Of a stretch of 64,000 nt of DNA, positions 10,122 to 43,948 are shown in pieces. The position numbers were made by a program, and so were the translations under genes. Source of the DNA: Alphaproteobacteria bacterium (GTDB lineage Bacteria; Pseudomonadota; Alphaproteobacteria; UBA6615); the NCBI GenBank assembly GCA_009691025.1, contig SHWB01000004.1, forward strand, positions 54,245-118,244, read 5' to 3'. The first letter of the stretch is position 1. The number at the start of each line of letters is the position of its first letter. The notes beneath the pieces were generated by a model. The model had not been told where the DNA came from and made no database searches. It was given only the letters and a program-made list of their open reading frames with translations.

Positions 10122-11161
10122 GCGGCCTCCCGCGCGCACGGGCATTGCGTGCGGTCGGGCGGGCACAGGCGCCGCCCGCCGGGTCCGGCGACCGCGCCGC
10201 CACTGTCCAGCGCCTGTCGCACGGTACCTACGAGCGCCGCGATGAAGGCCGGCCGCGTATCGACGGTCGGCGCGCGAAACCAGGCCGGCACCCCGACATG
10301 GCGGGCTAGTTTGGCATATTCGACATCCAGCTCGACCAGCGTCTCGACATGCTCGGAGACGAAGGCAATGGGCACGACCACCACCGGCACGCCGTCGGCG
10401 CCGGCCCGGCGGATCTCGTCGTCGGTCGCCGGCCCGATCCATTCCAGCGGCCCGACCCGGCTCTGGTAGCAGATGCGCCAGTCGGTCCCCGCACCCAGCC
10501 GCGCCGCCACCGCGACCGCCGTGCGCTCCACCTGCCACTGATACGGGTCGCCGCGCGCGATCACCTTCTTCGGCAATCCATGCGCCGAGAACAGCACGCG
10601 CGGCACGCCATGCGCGCGCGCCTCGTACGTCAACCGCCGGACTAGACCGGCCATTTCCTCGACGAAGCCCTCGGCCTCCGGCCAGCAGCAGGCCAGGGTC
10701 GCCGGCGCGGTCAGCCCTGTCTTTTCGGCCGCGCTCCGCCATACGCGCATCGACGATCCCATGGTCGTGGTCGAGTATTGCGGGTAGAGCGGTAGCAGCA
10801 CGATGCGGTCGGGGCGCCATGCCGCGACCGCCACCACCGCATCCTCGATGAAAGGATGCCAGTAACGCATTGCGACGAAGCAGCGCGTCTCTCCGAGTCC
10901 GGCATTGTCCAAAGCGCCGTTCAGGGAGGCCGCCTGCGCCTCGGTGTTTGGCAGCAACGGCGAGAGGCCACCGAGACGCGCATAGTTCGCCCGGGCGAAT
11001 TTTTCCCGACGCGTGGAGAGCATGCTCGCCAGCAGCCGGCGCATCGGCTGCGGCGCGTCAATGATGGCCTGGTCGTTGAACAGGTTGAACAGGAACGGGC
11101 GAACGGCCACCAGCGAGTCCGGCCCGCCAAGATTGAACAGCACAACCGCGGTCTTCATCAC
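10118..11161 (-). CDS. hemH: Ferrochelatase
   Basis: 347 aa. Inserts Fe2+ into protoporphyrin IX. Recognisable blocks are VVLFNLGGPDS at the N-terminus, PLYPQYSTTTMGS, FSAHGLPKKVIARGDPYQ (the conserved catalytic His region) and PIAFVSEHVETLVELD. ATGA overlaps on both sides with hemE and hemJ indicate translational coupling. Met1-Met2 leaves the exact start ambiguous by one codon. Confidence 0.95.
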   Translation of the reverse strand: MMKTAVVLFNLGGPDSLVAVRPFLFNLFNDQAIIDAPQPMRRLLASMLSTRREKFARANYARLGGLSPLLPNTEAQAASLNGALDNAGLGETRCFVAMRYWHPFIEDAVVAVAAWRPDRIVLLPLYPQYSTTTMGSSMRVWRSAAEKTGLTAPATLACCWPEAEGFVEEMAGLVRRLTYEARAHGVPRVLFSAHGLPKKVIARGDPYQWQVERTAVAVAARLGAGTDWRICYQSRVGPLEWIGPATDDEIRRAGADGVPVVVVPIAFVSEHVETLVELDVEYAKLARHVGVPAWFRAPTVDTRPAFIAALVGTVRQALDSGGAVAGPGGRRLCPPDRTQCPCAREAA

Positions 11162-12186
11162 GCCGCACTCGCCTGGCGGCGCACCCGGTCGACCAGCGCC
11201 GCAACATGCTCCGGCGGGGTCGACGGCAGCACGCCATGGCCGAGATTGAAGACGAACGGACCATCCGACAGTGCCCCGAGAATCGAAGCGACTTCACGCT
11301 CCATCGCGGCGCCTCCAGCCAGCAGCGTGACCGGATCGAGGTTGCCTTGAACTGCGCAGAGTCCCAGCAATTCTCGCGCGGCCCAAGCCGGCGATACCGC
11401 AGAATCGAGACCGACCGCCGTCACTCCCGTCTCGCGCACATACTCCGGCAGATTGACGCCGGCGCCGCGTGGAAACCCGATCACCGGGATATCCGGATGC
11501 CGCGACCGCAATCGAGCGATCAGCGCCTTCGTCGGCTCGATCGACCAGCGCCGGAAGCCCGAGGCCGGCAGCACGCCCGCCCAAGTATCGAATATCTGCA
11601 CGACATCGACGCCTGCATCAACCTGGGCAGTAAGCAGATCCACCGTCGCTGTCACCAGCCGGTCGATCAGCACGCCGAACCCATCTGGATCGCGCACCGC
11701 CCAGCCTTTCACGGCAGCAAAATCGCGCGACGGCCCGCCCTCGACCATGTAGGTCGCCAAGGTCCAGGGCGCACCGCAGAAACCTATAAGCGCCGTCTCG
11801 CGCGGCAGGTGCGCCCGTACCGTAGCCACCGTCTCCATTACCGCCGCCAGCCGTCCGTCGATGCGCAGGCCGCCCAGCGCCTCGACTGCGGCGCTGTCGG
11901 CCAGTGCCTCTAGCCGTGGCCCCTCGCCCTCGACGAAACTCACCGGTTGCCCCATCGCATCCGGCACTACGAGGATGTCGGAGAACAGGATAGCCGCATC
12001 GAGATCGAACCGGCGCACCGGCTGCAGCGTTGCCTCGACGGCGAGTTGCGGCGTGTAGCAGAAGCTGAGGAAATCCGGTGTCTTGCTGCGCAATGCCCGG
12101 TACTCGGGCAGATACCGGCCCGCCTGGCGCATCAGCCAGACGGGCGGCGGCTGCCGCCTTCCACCGCGCAGGACATCGAGCAACAT
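11158..12186 (-). CDS. hemE: Uroporphyrinogen III decarboxylase
   Basis: About 342 aa from the internal ATG at 12186 (MLLDVLRGGRRQPPPVWLMRQAGRYLPEYR), the family N-terminus containing the substrate-binding Arg/Gln loop. FCGAPWTLATYMVEGG and VVQIFDTWAG are further signatures. It converts uroporphyrinogen III to coproporphyrinogen III. The track ORF starts 18 codons upstream; that extension is not family-like. It is the first gene of hemE-hemH-hemJ and borders the predicted origin. Confidence 0.94.
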   Translation of the reverse strand: MLLDVLRGGRRQPPPVWLMRQAGRYLPEYRALRSKTPDFLSFCYTPQLAVEATLQPVRRFDLDAAILFSDILVVPDAMGQPVSFVEGEGPRLEALADSAAVEALGGLRIDGRLAAVMETVATVRAHLPRETALIGFCGAPWTLATYMVEGGPSRDFAAVKGWAVRDPDGFGVLIDRLVTATVDLLTAQVDAGVDVVQIFDTWAGVLPASGFRRWSIEPTKALIARLRSRHPDIPVIGFPRGAGVNLPEYVRETGVTAVGLDSAVSPAWAARELLGLCAVQGNLDPVTLLAGGAAMEREVASILGALSDGPFVFNLGHGVLPSTPPEHVAALVDRVRRQASAA

Positions 12187-12630
12187 CACGACGGGCAACA
12201 CTCCGGCAAGGGCCGTCCCGCGTCCCGGGACTGGCGGCAATATGCCTTGGCAACGCCTTGTGAGGACACAATCAATTCAATTAATATCTTTCTAAAGAAA
12301 CCTACTGAGGTTGTAGCAGTGCGGTGAATCCCGGGTACGGACTATCTGCCCACGTCGCCCGCCATGCTGCCTAAGATTCAGGACAAGCATCTCCCCGGGC
12401 GTGGATGAAATGGGGAGATTGCCGCGCGATACTGGTCCGCCGATTGAGCGAATTGCGGGCATGGAATTGCCCAGTGCACAATCGAACATCGATTGTCCCC
12501 ATCCCGGTATGAACTAGTCCACATGTGACCAGAACGGTGACAATGTCATTGCCCGCCGGGCACAAATCTGCGAACACGGCCCCGCCACCACAACTTGTCC
12601 CCGTTATCCCGCCCAATGCAGAGCGACAGA
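12187..12630. other. oriC: Predicted chromosomal origin of replication (hemE/ppsR gap)
   Basis: About 440 bp without a credible gene between divergent hemE and ppsR. In Caulobacter and Rickettsia the origin lies exactly between hemE and the DUF299 (RP001) gene, which ppsR is. The gap holds an AT-rich stretch at about 12269-12300 and imperfect DnaA boxes (7 of 9 to TTATCCACA): CGTGGATGA at 12400-12408 (reverse), TTGTCCCCA at 12493-12501 and TAGTCCACA at 12515-12523. Two GANTC sites occur at 12326 and 12375. Two parS sites lie about 10-12 kb away. No perfect DnaA box is seen. Confidence 0.6.
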
Positions 12631-13482
12631 ATGACTGCCGGCGCCGTCACGCCCCCGACCTTTCACCTCCATCTCGTGTCGGATTCGACCGGCGAGACGG
12701 TGCAGTCGGTCGCACGTGCCTGCGTCGCCCAGTTCGAGGGCATCGCCCCGCAGCAGCATTTGTGGGCGCTGGCCCGCACGCCGCACGCCCTCGACCGTGC
12801 GCTCGAGGATATCCGTGCCAATCCCGGACTCGTCATCTTCACCATCGTTGACGATACGCTGAGCCAGCGGCTGGTCGATGGCTGCCGCCGCCTGGGCGCG
12901 CCATGCATTTCCGTGCTCGACCCGATCATCAGCGCCTTCGGCGCCTATCTCGATGCGCGGCCGAGCCATCGCCCCGGCGTGCAGCACGCCCTCGACGCCA
13001 ATTACTTCCGCCGTATCGAGGCTATGGACTGGGCGCTGATGCACGACGACGGCCAGCACACCGACAACCTCGCCTCCAGCGACGTCATCCTCGTCGGTGT
13101 GTCCCGCACCTCGAAGACACCGACCTGCCTCTACCTCGCCAATCGCGGCATCAAGGCCACCAATGTCCCCTTCGTGCCCGGCGTGCCGCTGCCCGACGAG
13201 CTGGAGCATCTTGCCGGTTCGCTAATCGTCGGCCTGACGACCGATCCGCAGCGGCTGGTCGAGGTCCGCCGCGCCCGCGTCGCCGCGCTGCGCCAGGACC
13301 GGCCGACGGCCTATATCGATCTCGATCGCGTGCGTGAGGAAGTGCTGACCGCGCGTCGGCTGTTCTCGGCGCGAGGCTGGCCGGTGATCGACGTGACGCG
13401 CCGCTCGATCGAGGAGACGGCGGCGGCGATCATCGGTCTCTACGACGCCCATCGAACCGGCCTCAATCCCCCCGTCCCATGA
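12631..13482 (+). CDS. ppsR: Pyruvate, water dikinase / PPDK regulatory protein (DUF299)
   Basis: 283 aa. A bifunctional ADP-dependent kinase and phosphorylase that acts on PEP synthase or pyruvate phosphate dikinase. The N-terminal FHLHLVSDSTGETVQSVARA block and the P-loop VGVSRTSKTPTCLYLANRG with GIKATNVPFVPGV are diagnostic. I prefer the ATG at 12631; in-frame alternatives are the ATG at 12616 and a TTG at 12595. It is the first gene right of the predicted origin and heads ppsR-maf-aroE-coaE-dnaQ. Confidence 0.92.
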   Translation: MTAGAVTPPTFHLHLVSDSTGETVQSVARACVAQFEGIAPQQHLWALARTPHALDRALEDIRANPGLVIFTIVDDTLSQRLVDGCRRLGAPCISVLDPIISAFGAYLDARPSHRPGVQHALDANYFRRIEAMDWALMHDDGQHTDNLASSDVILVGVSRTSKTPTCLYLANRGIKATNVPFVPGVPLPDELEHLAGSLIVGLTTDPQRLVEVRRARVAALRQDRPTAYIDLDRVREEVLTARRLFSARGWPVIDVTRRSIEETAAAIIGLYDAHRTGLNPPVP

Positions 13483-14072
13483 CGCCGGTGCTCTCCTCTG
13501 CCAGCCCGACGCGCGCCGGCCTGCTTATGCGCGCGGGCCTCGCCTTCGAGGTCTATCCGGCGCGCGTGGACGAGGACGAGGTCAAGCGCGCGCTTGCCGG
13601 CGAAGGCGCCCCGGCAACGGAGAGCGCCGAGACGCGGGCCGAGCTGAAGGCCACACAGGTCGCGCGGCGCTGGCCAGGCGACCTCGTCATCGGCGCCGAC
13701 CGGGGGCTCGAATGCGCCGGCGGCGCCTACGACAAGCCGCCGGATTCGGCGCGGGCGCGCAGCCAGCTCCAGGCCTTGCGCGGCCGCCGCCATAGCCTGC
13801 ATGCCGCCGTCGCGGCGGCGCGCGGCGGGGCACTGCTGTGGCACCATCGTGGCCATGCGGAGCTGACCATACGCGATTTCTCCGACGCCTTCCTCGACGC
13901 CTATCTCGCCACGTCAGGCACCGACGTGCTCGGCTCGGTCGGCGCCTATCGCGTCGAGGGGCCCGGCATCCAGCTCTTCGCCGAGATTCGCGGCGACCGG
14001 CCGACTATCCTCGGCTTGCCCCCGCTGCCGCCGCCCGACTTCCTGCGCGGCCACGCGGCGGCGGCGACATGA
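13479..14072 (+). CDS. maf: Maf family nucleoside triphosphate pyrophosphatase
   Basis: 197 aa. Maf proteins hydrolyse non-canonical or modified NTPs to NMP. The N-terminal LSSASPTRAGLLMRAGL and the GADRGLECAGGAYDKP segment correspond to the substrate-binding and catalytic loops (usually GADQ; here GADR). It overlaps ppsR and aroE by 4 bp each (ATGA), so the unit is translationally coupled. Confidence 0.88.
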   Translation: MTPVLSSASPTRAGLLMRAGLAFEVYPARVDEDEVKRALAGEGAPATESAETRAELKATQVARRWPGDLVIGADRGLECAGGAYDKPPDSARARSQLQALRGRRHSLHAAVAAARGGALLWHHRGHAELTIRDFSDAFLDAYLATSGTDVLGSVGAYRVEGPGIQLFAEIRGDRPTILGLPPLPPPDFLRGHAAAAT

Positions 14073-42482: not shown

Positions 42483-43301
42483 CTACCGAGCCGGCGCCGG
42501 CCTCCGCCACGCCAGCGCCTCGGCGATGTGGATGCGCCTGACGGGCAGCGGCGTGTCGCGGTCCAGCGAACCGAGGCCGGCGAGCGTGCGCGCGACGCGG
42601 AGGACGAGGCGCCAGCCGCGCGCCGAGAGTTTGAGCCTGCCGGCGGCGGCGAGCAGCAATTCGCGGCCCGGCGCGTCGGGCGCCGCCACCTCCTCGAGCA
42701 ACTGGCCGTCCGCCGCAGCAGTGCTGCGCGGGCCGTCCGCGCCGTAGCGGGCGCGCTGGAGGGCGCGTGCGCCGGCGACGCTGGTGGCGACTTCGGCCGA
42801 GCCCTCGGCCGGCGGCGGCAGGGCAAGTTCGCTGGCCGCGACGGCCGCCAGTTCGACATGCAGGTCGATGCGGTCGAGGAACGGGCCGGACAGGCGCGAC
42901 TGATAATCCGCGCCGCAGCGCGGTGCCCGGGAACATCCCTGCACGGGATCGCCGAGATAGCCGCAGCGGCACGGGTTCATCGCCGCGACGAGCCGGAAGC
43001 GCGCCGGGTAGTTCGCATGGTGGTTGGCGCGCGACACCACGGTCCGGCCGGCCGCCAGCGGTCGCCGTCGGGCACGCGCATAGCCGGCAGCCATGTAGGC
43101 GCCGGTCTTCTCGCTGTGCTCTAGGATGCGGCGCGTTCCGCCCGTCTCAAGCCCGGCCATGGTACGCAGCAGCGCGGCGGGCACATAGAAGACATGGTCG
43201 ATGCCGTAACCCTCCAGGGCGCGCGCGAGATATTCGGAACCGATGGTGGTCTTCGCGGGTGTCTTTGTCGCCCCGCGCTTCGCGGATGCCTTCGCGGGCA
43301 C
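42483..43301 (-). CDS. In-frame chimera: ThDP-enzyme N-terminus joined to ComM (Mg-chelatase-like) C-terminus
   Basis: From a GTG at 43301 (GGGAGG upstream), residues 1-80 read TTIGSEYLARALEGYGIDHV, ILEHSEKTGAYMAAGYARAR, the N-terminal pyrimidine-domain start of acetolactate-synthase-like ThDP enzymes including the Glu-bearing HSEK segment. From about residue 82 it becomes VVSRANHHANYPARFRLVAA, MNPCRCGYLGDPVQGC, SGPFLDRIDLHVEL, the C-terminal part of ComM/YifB with its Cys cluster and Mg_chelatase_C domain. Neither enzyme is complete: no Walker A of ComM, no ThDP-binding domain. A deletion between two same-direction genes explains it best. Confidence 0.78.
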   Translation of the reverse strand: MPAKASAKRGATKTPAKTTIGSEYLARALEGYGIDHVFYVPAALLRTMAGLETGGTRRILEHSEKTGAYMAAGYARARRRPLAAGRTVVSRANHHANYPARFRLVAAMNPCRCGYLGDPVQGCSRAPRCGADYQSRLSGPFLDRIDLHVELAAVAASELALPPPAEGSAEVATSVAGARALQRARYGADGPRSTAAADGQLLEEVAAPDAPGRELLLAAAGRLKLSARGWRLVLRVARTLAGLGSLDRDTPLPVRRIHIAEALAWRRPAPAR

Positions 43302-43468
43302 GGCCTGCCTCCCTGGCGATGAGCCGGTACGATCTAGCCAGCGCCGGCGCGGCAAGTTGAGCCGGCCCGGCCGGCGGCGCGGCACGGCGCGATGGGCCCT
43401 GTTGCCGTTCCCGCGCATTCTACGTGTGGCGGTGCCACTGGGCGGCCATTTCCGCCGCGGAGGTGCAC

Positions 43469-43948
43469 ATGAAGGTCGACACGAAAATCATCGCCATCCT
43501 CAACACGGTGCCGAGGAACGAGCTGACGGCGATCAACCAGCACTTCCTGCATTAGCGCAGGCTCGCCGACTGTGGCGTCGTGCGGCGGGCGAAGGCCTAA
43601 TACGAGGAATCGGTCGACGACATGCGCCATTCCGACCGGCTGATCGAGCGCATCCTCTTTCTCGAGGGCCTGCCCAATCTGCAGGATCTCGGCAAGCTGC
43701 TGCTCGGCGAGAACGTGCGCGAGATCCTCGACTGCGACCTCGAGGCCGAGAGCGCCGCCATGCCGGCGCTGCGCGACGGCATCGCCCATTGCGAGAGCGT
43801 CGCCGACTACGTCAGCCGCGCCCTGCTGCGCGAGATCCTCAAGGGCGAGGAGGAGCATGTCGACTTCCTCGAAACCCAGTTCGCCCTCATCGAGCGCCCG
43901 GGTATCGAGAACTACGTGCAACTGCAGAGCAAGCCGGCGGAGGATTAG
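43469..43948 (+). pseudogene. bfr: Bacterioferritin with two in-frame stop codons
   Basis: One frame from 43469 to 43948 gives a 160-codon Bfr-length reading: MKVDTKIIAILNTVPRNELT, AINQHFLH, TAG (codon 29), RRLADCGVVRRAKA, TAA (codon 44), YEESVDDMRHSDRLIERILF to the end. The ferroxidase ligands (Glu of NELTAINQ, Glu/His of YEESVDDMRH, Glu/His of EEEHVDF) and the haem Met of DDMRH are retained. Both stops replace residues usually Ala/Tyr/Ser and Glu. The codon frame is kept, so indel error is not the cause. bfd lies next to it, convergent. Confidence 0.88.

Follow-up and report, generated by a model that had tools for sequence, protein, structure and literature searches.

A predicted chromosomal replication origin of the Cori type between hemE and ppsR in an uncultured alphaproteobacterium

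The hemE-ppsR gap and its surroundings

The window (the whole stretch of 64,000 nucleotides that was analysed) belongs to contig C13 (118 kb) of a 61% complete MAG comprising 1.67 Mb in 27 contigs, and holds the divergent genes hemE and ppsR on either side of a 444-base gap at 12187-12630, which corresponds to 66.4-66.9 kb on C13. The gene order around this gap (parB-parA-rsmG-mnmG-mnmE...rho-hemJ-hemH-hemE, gap, ppsR-maf-aroE) is that of the standard alphaproteobacterial origin neighbourhood, with rsmG, mnmG, mnmE, rho, hemJ, hemH and hemE on the minus strand and ppsR (DUF299), maf and aroE on the plus strand. The genes parA and parB are found immediately beyond the left end of the 64-kb window. 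Left of the gap, parA/parB and parS lie at approximately 10-14 kb; in relatives, parS is found approximately 10-13 kb left of ppsR. The features of the locus are as follows, with strand where one is assigned.

569-584: parS-like site CGTTTCACGTGAAACA, 16-mer with one mismatch
2833-2848: parS-like site TGTTTCACGTGAAACG, 16-mer with one mismatch
11158-12240, minus strand: hemE (uroporphyrinogen decarboxylase), left flank; PF01208, E 2.8e-116; likely start near 12186
12187-12630: predicted oriC (Cori type), the hemE-ppsR gap, from synteny, relatives' skew and conserved core
12265-12304: AT-rich segment, a likely DNA unwinding element given its position beside the conserved core
12304-12322, plus strand: degenerate DnaA-trio-like run CTG AGG TTG TAG CAG, aligning with the TAG/AAG/TTG trios of relatives
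12323-12340: where relatives have tandem DnaA boxes directly next to the trios; the window has the conserved GGTGAATCC and the degenerate CGGGTACGG
12326-12330: GANTC (CcrM-type) site inside the core, shared at the corresponding alignment columns by 13 or more of the 21 family gaps
12375-12379: second GANTC site
12400-12408, minus strand: weak DnaA-like box TCATCCACG, two mismatches to TTATCCACA, not above chance alone
12493-12501, plus strand: weak DnaA-like box TTGTCCCCA, two mismatches to TTATCCACA, not above chance alone
12515-12523, plus strand: weak DnaA-like box TAGTCCACA, two mismatches to TTATCCACA, not above chance alone
12595-12603, plus strand: box-like TTGTCCCCG, in alignment columns where family members have TTATCCCCG or TTATCCACC
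12595-13482 (ORF), plus strand: ppsR / DUF299 / COG1806 kinase-pyrophosphorylase, right flank; PF03618, E 4.7e-90; true start approximately 12619-12632

Adjacent hemE and ppsR genes are present in 104 alphaproteobacterial loci (including a few duplicates), and the window's contig is collinear over most of its length with those of six relatives (G003, G001, G019, G010, G006 and G014). The Cori origin of Caulobacter crescentus and the origin of Rickettsia prowazekii have been placed between the same two genes, hemE and COG1806 (PMC1914354).

Much of what the original prediction had said of this locus is borne out. Pfam matches place hemE on the minus and ppsR on the plus strand, so that the genes diverge and orientation switches at the gap as described, while the two parS sites placed about 10 kb away correspond to the parS-like 16-mers, each with one mismatch, 9-12 kb left of the gap. 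The gap had been called non-coding, and indeed the ORF list holds no convincing coding sequence for 12187-12630, nor did an Rfam search of 11100-13600 return a match. It had also been called unusually long, which is true when set against ordinary intergenic gaps, but its length is normal for the orthologous gap, which measures approximately 400-530 bp in the family. GC content is 57% in the gap versus 69% in the window (AT 43% versus 31%), and the AT-rich segment reported at 12269-12300 is real, extending over 12265-12304; on the whole 118-kb contig, a density of 25 or more A/T in 32 bases is reached at just one other place. Both of the GANTC sites that had been noted were recovered, at 12326 and 12375.

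GC skew and replication polarity

GC skew is negative to the left and positive to the right of the orthologous gap in all seven same-family relatives, and the shift at the gap is clear in six of them. In five of the seven, the cumulative-skew minimum falls between -466 and -1191 bp relative to the ppsR match; in G003, it falls at -6.9 kb and is there the global minimum of a clean V drawn by a 1.17 Mb contig, with dnaA approximately 146 kb away on the rising arm. A two-line fit of the relatives' skew is less sharp, with hinges between -9 and +16 kb. In G007, a shallow minimum approximately 0.5 kb from dnaA and 29 kb right of the gap nearly ties with the gap itself (-1531 versus -1497). The dnaA gene of this genome (G007:C42, 105806-107221) is situated approximately 29 kb from the hemE-ppsR gap, in the orientation opposite to ppsR, and gene order in G007 departs from that of the family beyond approximately 7.5 kb.

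The original prediction had named a skew minimum elsewhere, for example at dnaA, as speaking against an origin in the gap. No minimum is present at dnaA in contig C21, which carries the dnaA of the window's own genome, or in G003, leaving the near-tie in G007. Skew along the window's own contig is shallow and reaches its minimum 29.8 kb to the right of the gap (hinge fit +27 kb), and consequently the origin call for this genome rests on homology; third-position skew shows the expected shift for minus-strand genes only. This minimum borders on a segment (36.7-42.5 kb) for which relatives have no orthologues, and such a segment can displace a shallow skew minimum. Adjoining both the segment and the minimum is a minus-strand ORF (42486-43487) in which an N-terminal fragment of a TPP enzyme is fused to the C-terminal portion of a ComM/Mg-chelatase-like protein, perhaps the scar of a recombination event, perhaps a join made during assembly. 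KOPS-like and chi octamers around the gap were either too few or inconsistent in their switch of strand bias.

DnaA boxes and a conserved core

Relatives' gaps, where the original prediction had suggested looking for conserved 9-mers, proved rich in DnaA boxes: the perfect DnaA box TTATCCACA occurs at 0.607/kb in the orthologous gaps versus 0.005/kb in their flanks, an enrichment of approximately 100-fold. One might suppose that the gap is simply a conserved divergent promoter or regulatory region of hemE and ppsR, with the origin elsewhere, for example at dnaA, given that other conserved blocks of the family gaps (e.g. near hemE) could be promoters and that the minimum near dnaA in G007 rivals that at the gap. 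However, this is very unlikely in our assessment, since it is at the gap that the skew of relatives changes sign, dnaA sits on the rising arm of the G003 curve and is free of a minimum in the window's own genome, and DnaA boxes are concentrated in the orthologous gaps.

Within the window's gap itself, no DnaA box with one mismatch or fewer was found, consistent with the earlier statement that it lacks a perfect box, and a single copy of TTATCCACA exists in the whole 1.67 Mb assembly. The three boxes matching at 7/9 positions on which the original prediction drew are real and lie where it had placed them, but they are weak as evidence: composition-matched shuffles of the gap contain a mean of 1.1 two-mismatch boxes and reach three or more in 10% of cases (P ~0.10), while only 1% of 444-bp windows of the genome's contigs C13 and C21 reach three. 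Gaps of this kind are not peculiar to the window, as boxes of one mismatch or fewer are missing from 24 of 99 alphaproteobacterial gaps (counting the window's own), many of them from Phenylobacterium and Brevundimonas; in the window's own family, only one other gap shares this state.

The original prediction had suggested that DnaA in this lineage may read a box of its own, unlike TTATCCACA, for which the lack of a perfect box in the gap and the single copy in the assembly could be cited. Yet domain IV of this organism's DnaA hardly differs from that of family members with TTATCCACA, TGATCCACA or TTATCCCCG in their gaps, and, with the binding domain so close to that of relatives that have normal boxes, we rejected this idea; a gap that serves as origin through a new recognition code appears highly improbable. 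By analogy with Caulobacter Cori, the use of weak boxes is the more likely reading of the absence of perfect ones.

The 20 family gaps aligned with the window share several conserved blocks. A profile of these 20 gaps, built without the window and searched against 215 kb of its own sequence (contigs C13 and C21), has one match, at 12304-12336 (ACTGAGGTTGTAGCAGTGCGGTGAATCCCGGGT, E 0.0074), a core that the original prediction had not flagged and that adjoins the AT-rich segment. A model of the core only likewise has its sole match in the same 215 kb at this place (E 0.00033), and 1.35 Mb of flanking DNA contains no match to it, although the model's columns were picked around the first match, and so it is the full 20-gap profile that constitutes the blind test. 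The core model matches 37 of 83 gaps from other loci (a set containing a few repeats of family members and also the window's own locus), 36 of these in the same orientation. Moreover, a model made without G003, which still included same-genus relatives of G003, singles out the G003 gap (E 1.1e-14), with no other significant match in 1.17 Mb. In relatives, the core consists of AT-rich DNA followed by TAG/AAG/TTG triplets, a short GC-rich spacer and one or two boxes (e.g. TGTGGATAA, CGGGGATTA); the window keeps this layout in degenerate form, as TTG TAG CAG, then GGTGAATCC and CGGGTACGG. A different, strongly conserved block, GGATGACAGGGGG...ACGAACGGCATAAGGTTGAACAAAT, is present in family gaps L005-L022 from several genera, approximately 60-110 bp left of the ppsR-proximal box, and was not recognisable in the window by alignment.

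An alternative hypothesis is that the gap represents an ancestral origin that has decayed in this lineage, initiation having moved, for example to the contig's own skew minimum some 30 kb to the right, and the gap being left without strong boxes. We regard this as extremely unlikely: the core has been retained although relatives are only approximately 60% identical at the ppsR protein, the distant minimum coincides with the edge of the orthologue-free segment, and gaps without a box of one mismatch or fewer are found in almost a quarter of the alphaproteobacterial set (24/99).

Synteny, the skew minima of relatives, box enrichment and the conserved core point the same way as the original prediction, and the gap is very probably the chromosomal replication origin, oriC, of the hemE-COG1806 (Cori) type; that this organism uses it, with DnaA binding and unwinding there, is what its sequence would suggest. 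For an uncultured alphaproteobacterial family, it provides an origin with good support, and an ordinary one, at the place expected for the class. The oriented core of trios and tandem boxes is a marker of the hemE-ppsR gap across much of the class and is kept where ordinary DnaA boxes have faded, making it possible to find origins in fragmentary genomes with weak GC skew.

Comparison with known origins and a possible mechanism

The gap has in common with Cori of C. crescentus and the R. prowazekii origin its flanking genes, its size, an AT-rich segment and DnaA-like sites that are weak and depart from the consensus (PMC1914354), and weak G- and W-boxes have been described in Cori (PMC4468827). 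In contrast to Cori, its boxes are weaker than the Cori G-boxes TGATCCACA, and there is no clear array of TTAA-N7-TTAA CtrA sites: by eye, the gap holds no perfect site and a single TTAA-N7-CTAA with one mismatch to the CtrA consensus, at 12281-12295 inside the AT-rich segment. Several predicted origins are also without CtrA sites (PMC1914354).

A second point of comparison is the basal unwinding system (BUS), composed of DnaA-box and DnaA-trios, described in Bacillus subtilis and other bacteria, for which the published rule asks for at least three 3'-NAN-5' trios within 16 bp of a DnaA box (PMC8287927). Family gaps present the same order and polarity, with AT-rich DNA, then 5'-TAG-3' trios (3'-GAT-5'), a GC-rich spacer and tandem boxes, and three trios are present in some relatives (L016, L023). 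The window differs in having only two consecutive NAN trios (TAG CAG after TTG), below the published search rule, and its core box GGATTCACC has three mismatches to TTATNCACA (box mismatches being 3-4 overall). Since the window falls short of the strict rule of three consecutive NAN trios by a box, its origin is not classed as a BUS, and its core can be described, by analogy, as working like one.

Under the mechanism that we propose, DnaA would bind the weak boxes between approximately 12323 and 12603 and oligomerise leftward along the single-stranded trio-like run (12304-12322); the AT-rich segment (12265-12304) would then open, helicases would load and forks would proceed to left and right, after which segregation of the new origins would fall to ParB, bound at the two parS-like 16-mers 9-12 kb leftward of the gap. 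A bolder version, which we think unlikely, has replication starting from the core of trios and tandem boxes with almost no recognisable double-strand boxes, such that weak cooperative sites, in place of high-affinity ones, would define this origin.

CcrM-type methylation may possibly play a part in timing. The count of GANTC, examined for depletion as a sign of CcrM, was not clearly below that of palindromes of the same composition. A protein with a RAMA domain (CcrM-like) is encoded in the window's own genome (G000:C2:66722-67003) and in nearly all relatives, and among 14 control genomes the domain was found in Caulobacter only. Finally, a search for G-boxes TGATCCACA clustered elsewhere in the genome gave 14 sites, the sole pair within 1 kb being that at C14:76279 and 77125.
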